A program made the translations under genes and the position numbers. From NCBI GenBank assembly GCA_041690355.1, contig JAWLHK010000011.1, forward strand, positions 77,121-141,120: a stretch of DNA of 64,000 bases, written 5' to 3'. The first letter of the stretch is position 1. Each line of letters opens with the position of its first letter. Shown here one piece after another: positions 36,789 to 64,000 of this stretch. Source of the stretch: JAWLHK01 sp041690355 [NCBI: bacterium] (GTDB lineage: Bacteria; J088; JAWLBW01). The notes below the pieces were generated by a model. It did no database searches and was not told where the DNA came from. It was given only the letters and a program-made list of their open reading frames with translations.

Positions 36789-36819
36789 GACTGACGACTG
36801 ATGACTGACGACTGATGAC
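36789..36819. repeat. heptanucleotide tandem repeat (site a)
   Basis: GACTGAC, GACTGAT, GACTGAC, GACTGAT, then GAC: four exact heptads alternating in the last base. It fills much of the 71-bp gap between the DUF411 and DUF3703 genes. Confidence 0.85.
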
Positions 36820-37474: not shown

Positions 37475-37650
37475 TGACCGGACTGCCCGCGCGGAGACGC
37501 GGAGGCGCGGAGACGCGGAGAGGAAAAACGAGCAAAAGCGGCATTTTCTTGCGGTGCGTACGCTGAAGACGCCGAACGGATCCCGTTCCCAGACACCAGA
37601 AGCTTGCTTCACTCCGCGTCTCCGCGGCTCCGCGTGGAATCGTCTTTGTA
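37475..37650. repeat. snap-back element with inverted GCGGAG-octamer arms
   Basis: The left arm starts GACCGGACTGCCC (37475) and runs through octamers GCGGAGAC, GCGGAGGC, GCGGAGAC, GCGGAGAG (about 37491-37522). After about 87 bp comes the inverted arm CTCCGCGTCTCCGCGGCTCC (from 37612), ending near GGAATCGTCTTTG (37650). The 14-mer GCGGAGACGCGGAG is exactly complementary between arms. It is clearly related to the repeats at 62.7 and 63.4-63.9 kb. Confidence 0.8.
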
Positions 37651-62738: not shown

Positions 62739-62789
62739 AAAAGACCGGATATCCCACGCGGAGGCGCGGAGGCGCGGAGAGGAGAGACC
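62739..62789 (+). repeat. single copy of 81-bp-type repeat upstream of GxxExxY gene
   Basis: AAAAGACCGGATATCCCACG followed by octamers GCGGAGGC, GCGGAGGC, GCGGAGAG and GAGAGACC. The palindrome is the GGATATCC version. The unit's EcoRI-type linker is missing here. Confidence 0.88.
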
Positions 62790-62899
62790 AAACAAGAACC
62801 TTTTTTCCTTTTTTAGTGCGTTTGGTGGGAAGAGGCCTTCTCCTGGGCTGTGACATGCGGCAGGATAGGCGCTTGGAGTTGCCAGAAAAGGTGAATGCC

Positions 62900-63340
62900 A
62901 TGCCGTCCCTCGATGAGATTACTGCCCTGATTATCGACCAGTCCGTACAGATTCACCGTGACCTGGGGCCAGGGCTGCTCGAATCCGTTTACGAATCCAT
63001 CCTCGAGCGCTCGTTGCAGAAGAAGGGCCTCTTCGTCGAACGGCAGCAATCTGTATCCATTCAATACGAGGATATCGTCATCGACGAAGCGTTCCGGGCC
63101 GACCTGATCGTCCACAAGACGGTCATCCTCGAGATTAAGTCGGTGGAAAAGCTCGCCCCGGTGCACAGCAAGCAGCTGCTGACGTATCTCCGCCTGATGC
63201 GACTTCCTGTCGGATTACTGATCAACTTCGGAGCTCCGCTTCTCAAAGACGGACTTCACCGGGTGGTAAACAAGTTGTCGCCGGCAGATTCCCCCACCCT
63301 GGCCGTGAATCGAGAACCTGTCGCACCGATTGACACATAA
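62900..63340 (+). CDS. GxxExxY protein, PD-(D/E)xK nuclease-like
   Basis: A 146-aa protein of the GxxExxY family, a small restriction-endonuclease-fold family of unknown role. Seen: the naming motif G25-LL-E28-SV-Y31 within LGPGLLESVYESIL, then FRADLIVHKTVILEIKSV, where Asp68 and Glu78-x-Lys80 form a PD-(D/E)xK-type site, and KQLLTYLRLM (Gln92). ATG 62900 has AAAAGG at 8-9 bases; a GTG at 62891 is also possible. Longer frames upstream run through repeat DNA. Repeats of one family flank it on both sides. Confidence 0.88.
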   Translation: MPSLDEITALIIDQSVQIHRDLGPGLLESVYESILERSLQKKGLFVERQQSVSIQYEDIVIDEAFRADLIVHKTVILEIKSVEKLAPVHSKQLLTYLRLMRLPVGLLINFGAPLLKDGLHRVVNKLSPADSPTLAVNREPVAPIDT

Positions 63341-63352
63341 GGCCAAGGGCGG

Positions 63353-63808
63353 AAAAGACCGGACGTCCCACGCGGAGCCGCGGAGACGCGGAGAGGAAAG
63401 ACCCGGAAAGAGCGAATTCCCAGCGGATGACAAAAAAGACCGGACGTCCCACGCGGAGCCGCGGAGGCGCGGAGAGGAAAGACCCGGAAAGAGCGAATTC
63501 CCAGCGGATGACAAAAAAGACCGGATATCCCACGCGGAGGCGCGGAGAGGAAAGACCCGGAAAGAGCGAATTCCCAGCGGATTACAAAAAGGACCGGACG
63601 TCCCACGCGGAGCCGCGGAGGCGCGGAGAGGAAAGACCAGGAAAGAGCGAATTCCCAGCGGATGACAAAAAAGACCGGACGTCCCACGCGGAGCCGCGGA
63701 GGCGCGGAGAGGAAAGACCAGGAAAGAGCGAATTCCCAGCGGATGACAAAAAAGACCGGATATCCCACGCGGAGCCGCGGAGGCGCGGAGAGGAAAGACC
63801 CGGAAAAA
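63353..63808 (+). repeat. six-unit tandem array, 81-bp unit
   Basis: Units begin with GACCGG at 63357, 63438, 63519, 63592, 63673 and 63754 (periods 81, 81, 73, 81, 81); the sixth is truncated. Each has a palindrome (GGACGTCC in units 1, 2, 4, 5; GGATATCC in units 3, 6), CCACGCGGAG, GCGGAG-octamers, GGAAAGACC, and a linker with GCGAATTCCCAGCGGATGAC. Unit 3 lacks exactly one octamer. Units 1-3 and 4-6 are related by a 235-bp shift. Confidence 0.95.
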
Positions 63809-63885
63809 GTCGATTTCTTATTCCAAGGCGGGACCTGATGTACGGACGTGACTCCAAGTACTTGCTTTCAAGGCATTCGGTACTT

Positions 63886-63920
63886 GTTTCTCTCCGCGAC
63901 CCCGCGCCTCCGCGTGAAAC
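63886..63920 (-). repeat. inverted copy of repeat core
   Basis: GTTTCTCTCCGCGACCCCGC then GCCTCCGCGTGAAAC; the reverse complement carries CACGCGGAGGCGCGG and GCGGAGAG, the array core. The ends GTTTC/GAAAC are themselves inverted. Confidence 0.8.
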
Positions 63921-64000
63921 AGGCCCTTCGCCCTTCACCCTCCACGCACCACCCGCCAACCGGTTCTTTCCGAACGAACTGAGGAAGGTACTTGCTTCTC

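Follow-up and report, generated by a model that had tools for sequence, protein, structure and literature searches.

Inverted repeat arms beside GxxExxY nuclease genes point to a little-noticed, REPIN-like family of mobile DNA in several phyla

A GxxExxY gene enclosed by repeat arms

The stretch of DNA analyzed here (64,000 nucleotides, hereafter the window) contains a GxxExxY gene on the + strand (62900..63340), predicted to encode a 146 aa protein with a PD-(D/E)XK nuclease fold from an ATG start, with a GTG at 62891 as a possible alternative. Upstream of the gene lies a left (5') arm (62755..62781, + strand) made of three octamer cores, CACGCGGAG-G-CGCGGAG-G-CGCGGAG. The gene is followed by a tandem array of six units of about 81 bp (63353..63806, + strand), each with one + strand arm copy (TRF: 5.7 copies of 81 bp, 92% matches, score 789), and by a right (3') inverted arm (63890..63916, - strand) identical to the left arm at 25 of 27 positions. 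By eye, the likeness of the left arm to the array units reaches about 62739-62790. The array units are alike over their whole length, unlike the identical repeats and unique spacers of a CRISPR-like array. The sequence-only reading of this locus had placed the first repeat copy 110 bp before the gene, the array 13 bp after the stop codon and the inverted copy 78 bp further on; the corresponding distances (109 bp from arm to GTG, 12 bp from stop to array and 83 bp from array end to inverted copy) agree with it to within 5 bases.

The inverted alignment of 62755-62781 with 63890-63916 scored 44, against at most 30 for 2000 random pairs of window segments, and the pattern CACGCGGAGNCGCGGAG, with up to three mismatches, matched 21 times in the window against 5.65 expected, a number reached in none of 100 shuffles. 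A further inverted pair of this repeat, unstranded and without a gene, is found at 37497..37635 (arms 37497-37520 and 37612-37635) as a REPIN-like hairpin, with an inverted-repeat score of 43 and a single-stranded DNA fold (z -4.4) that beats all 200 shuffles. Among other short repeats in the window, AAGTACTTGCTTT, GGTACTTGTTTCTC and GGTACTTGCTTCTC recur within 63850-64000, where GGTACTTGCTTCTC reaches the window end and may start a further inverted copy outside it, and a perfect 14-bp tandem repeat, GACTGACGACTGAT, occupies 36789-36819 in 2.2 copies.

The encoded protein is an unambiguous member of the GxxExxY / PDDEXK_3 family. Profile searches returned 138.1 bits for TIGR04256 (cut-off 35) and 133.9 bits for PF13366 (cut-off 22), which was the sole Pfam family above its cut-off; PF01797, the HUH Y1 family of the RAYT enzyme, is unlisted for this protein in the Pfam search. 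The two matching models supply a name and a fold, and no function. A predicted metal-dependent nuclease site, claimed earlier from the letters, is present at Asp68, Glu78 and Lys80 (codons 63101-63103, 63131-63133 and 63137-63139, + strand), and D-[E/D]-K is retained in 144 of 146 aligned GxxExxY members, the window protein included. L004, which carries Lys at position 78, and L101, which carries Ala at position 68, depart from this pattern; the arms of L004 are well kept despite the change at its active site. Purifying selection acts on the protein family, with a median dN/dS of 0.068 (28 of 45 pairs usable).

An AlphaFold2 model of the window protein was fairly confident (pLDDT 84.9, pTM 0.78), and its top-ranked PDB neighbours were PD-(D/E)XK nucleases, headed among solved structures by Cas4 SSO0001 (4ic1). 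Its Foldseek E was 1.0e-3, no match reaching 0.001 or less, and VIA-align gave it a Z of 8.6 (106 residues, rmsd 3.8); the archaeal Holliday junction resolvase Hjc (1gef) stood lower in the ranking (Z 6.7, 86 residues, rmsd 3.4). For the predicted model, this ranking agrees with the PD-(D/E)XK assignment, in a Z range that is not decisive, and the fold held in common with Cas4 and Hjc does not equate to a common function. A sequence search against solved structures gave a single match, to an Obg GTPase (E 0.15), which was taken as chance, and PADLOC and PHROGs returned weak matches only (PDC-S02, Cas4 and a CRISPR-associated PHROG).

Inverted arms accompany GxxExxY genes in several phyla

A contig search with the window protein alone recovered 26 relatives, all of which have at least one copy of a loose octamer pattern within 700 bp of the gene. 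In 23 of the 26 (the exceptions being L003, L023 and L024), a + strand copy lies upstream and a - strand copy lies at or after the gene end. We complemented this pattern search with a motif-free test, in which the 250 bp upstream of each gene were aligned locally with the reverse complement of the 250 bp downstream, and the 99th percentile of mismatched distant flanks served as the cut-off. Inverted arms were detected at 128 of 146 GxxExxY genes, against 3 of 127 of their own flanks about 1 kb away, and in a third phylum at 26 of 29 genes against 0 of 26 far flanks. Pooled, inverted arms stand beside 154 of 175 GxxExxY genes and at 3 of 153 control positions at a distance of about 1 kb, the loci from the three phylum searches being best-scoring members rather than random draws. 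YhcG, another PD-(D/E)XK family used as a control, gave 1 of 30 (2 of 30 with wider flanks), and Y1 transposase genes, described below, served as the positive control. Near flanks of different GxxExxY genes, when paired with one another, passed in 204 of 1735 cases because the arms have a loose core in common.

By origin, arms were detected at 22 of 24 query relatives, 56 of 61 best-scoring members of two phyla, 50 of 60 further copies in multi-copy genomes, chosen by us from the listed matches, and 0 of 1 for the window gene, which fails the 250-bp test because its 3' arm sits behind the array. With the window gene included, 21 of the 175 genes have no arms detected within 250 bp, a number that counts against a nuclease that spreads its own arms. 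The 146-gene count omits L025 and L026 (no full-length profile match), the duplicate loci L027-L034, the duplicate genes L117 and L132 and one gene with a short flank; short flanks likewise removed L272 from the third-phylum count and L315 and L316 from the Y1 count. Phylum labels were taken from the sequence records and the phylum searches. An earlier inverted-repeat test with 200-bp flanks on 60 loci (near 50/60, far 2/56) was superseded by the 250-bp test, and a strict period-8 test (near 4/60, far 0/56) was abandoned because unit spacing varies.

These counts bear out the proposal of the sequence-only reading that the protein and the repeats form a unit, as well as its expectation that repeats would be enriched beside GxxExxY genes, a check that was run in part. 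Its more specific picture of GCGGAG-octamer repeats holds for the presence of repeats and has to be given up for the octamer, as core and spacing vary by locus and a period of 8 was found at 4 of 60 loci.

Arm composition

The arms typically consist of two to four direct copies of a core of about 6 bp, often C-R-C-N-R-A, at a spacing of mostly 8-11 bp; examples are CGCGAAG (8 bp), CACGGAA (9 bp) and CGCAGAT (10 bp). Two tandem cores, on the + strand upstream and on the - strand downstream, occur at 83 of 146 genes versus 0 of 127 far controls, and tandem cores on either strand and either flank at 120 of 146 versus 17 of 127. The arms vary from gene to gene, even inside one genome. When the two arms of one element were compared (80 elements, gap-free alignment), cores were identical at 1187 of 1278 positions and spacers at 301 of 474, a contrast that is indicative only, as cores were defined on one arm and alignment favours matching stretches. 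That cores are more constant than spacers is as expected if something binds the cores. A further figure of 690 identical arm-core positions out of 690 was set aside, since those arms had been picked by a pattern that fixes the cores.

Arms track the protein rather than the host

Among the 128 arm-bearing genes, arm similarity rises with protein identity, with a rho of 0.41 for pairs from different genomes and 0.40 for pairs from different phyla, values reached by 0 of 500 permutations. Common arms were found in about 45 of the 47 cross-phylum pairs with at least 70% protein identity (0.95 of 37 and all of 10) and in none of 53 same-genome pairs below 45% identity, so that arm sequence follows the protein and not the host. 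At 60-70% identity, the proportion of cross-phylum pairs with common arms was 0.23 of 180, which speaks against arms being spread by the nuclease. The clade with CGCGAAG-type arms spans Desulfuromonadales, Desulfomonilaceae, Desulfobulbus, Verrucomicrobia, Proteobacteria, Spirochaetes and others; within it, the protein C-terminus is the translated 3' arm, and by eye the 5' arm is in frame with the protein N-terminus.

The limits of the element were compared in the same 47 cross-phylum pairs, which derive from about 17 loci, mostly of the CGCGAAG clade, and in which each limit was measured against whichever of the two loci's arm ends lay nearer. DNA homology extends beyond the conserved domain by a median of 42 bp on the upstream side and 47 bp on the downstream side. 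Its 5' limit falls within 15 bp of the outer arm end in 23 of 47 pairs and its 3' limit in 29 of 47, with both limits doing so in 16 pairs. The homology breaks off within the element in 21 of 47 (5') and 5 of 47 (3'), the 5' figure being a point against arm spread by the nuclease, and continues more than 15 bp beyond the arm in 3 of 47 (5') and 13 of 47 (3'), 11 of the latter by 20-32 bp. Cross-phylum DNA homology thus seldom extends far beyond the outer arm ends.

Copies in Opitutae that lie between two conserved genes have long flanks in common and look inherited, which also weighs against spread by the nuclease. Five Verrucomicrobia/Opitutae loci (L006, L014, L016, L017 and L018) have the element between one and the same pair of genes, by eye the two putative topoisomerase IV or gyrase subunits, and the insertion there is apparently an inherited one.

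Gene-less arm pairs and genomes without the gene

We scanned 80 genomes with a three-unit octamer pattern, allowing one mismatch, and used the reversed pattern as a control. The 10 genomes with CGCGAAG-type gene arms gave 111 octamer matches and were all positive, a result that is partly by construction, as they had been picked for arm class, and that includes some matches of another class (G001). Thirty gene-bearing genomes of the G004 phylum, taken with arm class disregarded, gave 45 matches (10 genomes positive; reversed control 3). Forty genomes of the same phylum without the gene (40 of 76 there, 20 of the 40 being gene-less by deduction from the complete list of 42 genomes with a match) gave 4 matches in 4 genomes, equal to the 4 of the reversed control. 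The alternative that repeats might be equally common in genomes lacking the gene, raised with the initial observation, is answered in the negative by this comparison of one repeat class. Two gene-less cases were inspected: the match in G190 looks like coding sequence and that in G180 like a true solo arm, and an apparent solo arm without the gene counts against the nuclease as the agent of spread.

Dispersal differs among gene-bearing genomes. G002, G004 and G007 have two octamer matches each, both at the gene, and G008 has 42. Inverted pairs were found at 7 of 13 spots inspected in G008 (9 with a laxer pattern), in the class of its own gene, and at 6 of 10 spots inspected in G195, G197 and G001 together (7 with the laxer pattern). 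G013 has three gene-less inverted pairs with short loops, their arms being about 37 bp long and of the L120 class. Pairs that lack the gene yet match its class are seen in G013, G008 and the window. In G001, G195 and G197, the class of the dispersed pairs is carried by no resident gene inspected, which counts against movement by a resident nuclease; the genes inspected, all of other classes, are L001 in G001, L079 and the relic L327 in G195, and L091, L325 and L326 in G197, where L326 has CACAGAG-type arms and the inverted repeat at L325 is borderline and of a different kind. The mismatch could mean that the cognate genes were lost or are unassembled, or that movement took place without a matching gene.

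The loops of the gene-less hairpins in G013 and G008 look mutually unlike, not as in a simple amplified MITE, and this too counts against the nuclease model. In G008 (L155-L168), the loops of CGCGAAG hairpins often contain other intergenic repeats, of the CCCTCCCCTTCAAGGGGAGGG and GTCATTGCGAGCGAAGCGAAGCAATCC types, which by eye gives a nested mosaic.

Occupied and empty sites

The flanks of the L120 element (G013) are conserved in order across its family, and the site was inspected in 12 relatives of our choosing. In five of them (G355, G388, G360, G373 and G393), 52-60 bp separate the matching flanks. By eye, G377 carries at this site a gene-less hairpin of the L120 arm class, and G351 and G383 carry a hairpin and a single arm, respectively, both of other GxxExxY-type classes; in the remaining four relatives, 89-225 bp lie between the flanks. 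A homologue with arms of the L120 class was located at a different place in G394, another has related arms in G388, and one in G335 has other arms.

At the L099 site, the congener G152 has flanks that are 94% identical, no gene and another hairpin, and G285 has a shortened gene. A copy without the gene middle lies about 3 kb from the L099 site in G189, with counterparts in G152 and G253. The states of these two sites imply that gene-bearing and gene-less forms come and go. No target duplications were obvious by eye at the few sites and diverged relatives available. L004 yielded no clean empty site, and L098 was rejected as a simple insertion, the segment absent from relatives being about 1.7 kb. 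The terminator-like hairpin at the empty L120 site and the nesting at L099 had prompted the idea of preferred insertion into host hairpin loops, which we do not claim, as an additional inverted repeat made by the outer flanks was seen at only 10 of 124 loci and in several of these consists of extra arms.

A candidate mobile unit and its alternatives

Taken together with its arms, the GxxExxY gene is very probably a discrete mobile unit, whose minimal form would be the gene and two inverted arms (about 0.5 kb), and which measures about 1.2 kb in the window because of the array. It also seems probable to us, at a clearly lower level of confidence, that the GxxExxY nuclease drives the spread of its own arms by acting on them, through binding, cutting and spreading steps that we infer. 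The arms face each other, and a single strand could fold as a long hairpin. Nuclease and arms would constitute a matched pair, diverging together, in which each nuclease would bind its cognate arms at the cores and cleave there or alongside, probably on a hairpin, a cruciform or a single strand during replication. To our knowledge, PD-(D/E)XK nucleases cut DNA and none joins it, so that host repair or replication factors must be assumed for a lone enzyme of this kind; the arm pair, once released or copied, would be put by host repair into another intergenic location, either together with the gene or alone. Mobilization in trans would account for the gene-less pairs, in line with the role proposed for RAYTs in moving REPINs, and the window element would additionally have grown a local array of arm-bearing units. 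The broader proposal of a new class of mobile element, present in several phyla, with a lone PD-(D/E)XK nuclease, no transposase, recombinase or HUH enzyme of its own, a separate arm code for each protein lineage and spread through host repair or replication, is one that we advance tentatively.

Movement of the arms could instead be due to Y1 (HUH) transposases of the RAYT/IS200 kind, with GxxExxY as a passenger between two repeats. Y1_Tnp (PF01797) is found in 45 of 50 GxxExxY-bearing genomes versus 12 of 30 gene-less ones, a frame after the 3' arm of L019 resembles by eye a putative Y1 (RAYT-type) transposase, and the dispersed pairs of G001, G195 and G197 match no GxxExxY gene inspected there. 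However, 13 of 18 Y1 genes have inverted repeats of their own and of a different type, mostly GGGACA or GGGGTCA (L305-L324, all but one from GxxExxY-bearing genomes, with flanks slightly wider than in the GxxExxY test), and the tandem core motif stands beside only 1 of the 18. Arms that track the GxxExxY protein also speak against the passenger view, and no Y1 gene was found in five gene-bearing genomes of uncertain completeness (G001, G005, G006, G150 and G162), among which G001 has dispersed pairs. Because the Y1 repeats are of other kinds and five gene-bearing genomes show no Y1 gene, we regard this explanation as possible but unlikely. Scarcely different in probability is a selfish gene of the homing type, in which the nuclease would cut an empty arm pair or site and homologous recombination would copy the gene in. 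Homing endonucleases of the PD-(D/E)XK fold exist, and the arm-only and gene-bearing states at one site in related species, as well as a PD-(D/E)XK gene that stands alone, would suit such a mechanism; the element is, however, found in many unrelated places, which calls for spread to new sites besides homing, and its cross-phylum homology seldom goes far past the arms.

Regulation offers an account that does without mobility: the arms would be operator or transcript-end sites controlling the nuclease gene (autoregulation, termination or mRNA stability), and the dispersed copies would be ordinary duplications. The arms do adjoin the start and stop codons, are in frame at the protein ends in some loci and have conserved cores, yet gene-less pairs, occupied and empty sites, and cross-phylum homology limits near the arms require movement, which leaves this account improbable. 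That a repeat simply expanded around an unrelated gene, with a chance association in the window, has the least to recommend it and can practically be dismissed: GC-rich short tandem repeats are indeed produced by slippage, but the arm counts of 154/175 against 3/153 and 1/30 refute chance.

Relation to known systems, significance and distribution

The nuclease with its own arms has its closest parallel in the REPIN-RAYT system ('REPtron'), described in the portions of two articles available to us as a TnpA-REP tyrosine transposase (RAYT) gene that adjoins REPs, while inverted pairs of REPs are scattered in the genome (PMC3116915, PMC8266576); RAYTs 'appear to be incapable of self-mobilization' (PMC3116915). 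Set against those portions, the likeness lies in a small nuclease gene beside its own inverted-repeat class, as at the 154 GxxExxY genes with arms; in dispersed gene-less inverted pairs of the gene's class, seen in G013, G008 and the window and not everywhere; and in gene copies that differ in repeat class, repeats and protein co-diverging. By the same accounts, the differences are an HUH Y1 enzyme there and a PD-(D/E)XK enzyme in GxxExxY units, single REP palindromes there and arms of two to four tandem short cores here, and a GxxExxY gene that looks mobile together with its arms, with homologues at different sites in relatives, unlike RAYTs. As its enzyme belongs to a different superfamily, the GxxExxY unit would work like REPIN-RAYT without being a member of it. 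With MITEs and insertion sequences it shares inverted ends and copies without the gene middle (G189, G152 and G253, near the L099 site); it differs in that the roughly 0.45 kb between typical arms is filled by the GxxExxY gene (the only frame scanned) and in that the loops of gene-less copies look mutually unrelated.

In the portions of the open-licence literature available to us, we found no description of a link between GxxExxY and repeats, and earlier work elsewhere is possible; that literature likewise yielded no mention of TIGR04256 and no function for GxxExxY. The evidence points to a little-noticed family of mobile DNA in several phyla, REPIN-like with an unrelated enzyme. Were GxxExxY genes to form a second REPIN-like system unrelated to the first, some of the short repeats between genes in several phyla would be accounted for, and repeat-spreading nucleases would have evolved convergently. 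Such a system would also provide a natural series of pairs of nuclease and recognition site, with a code that is readable from genomes and directly testable, and would account for annotated protein termini that consist of translated repeat, such as those of the CGCGAAG clade.

No GxxExxY match was found in 50,697 phage records, and 8 of 72,556 plasmid records have one, all of these plasmids being predicted as non-mobilizable. Among the sampled genomes, a GxxExxY match is present in 59 of 118 from the G018 phylum, 42 of 118 from the G004 phylum and 48 of 249 from the G008 phylum.
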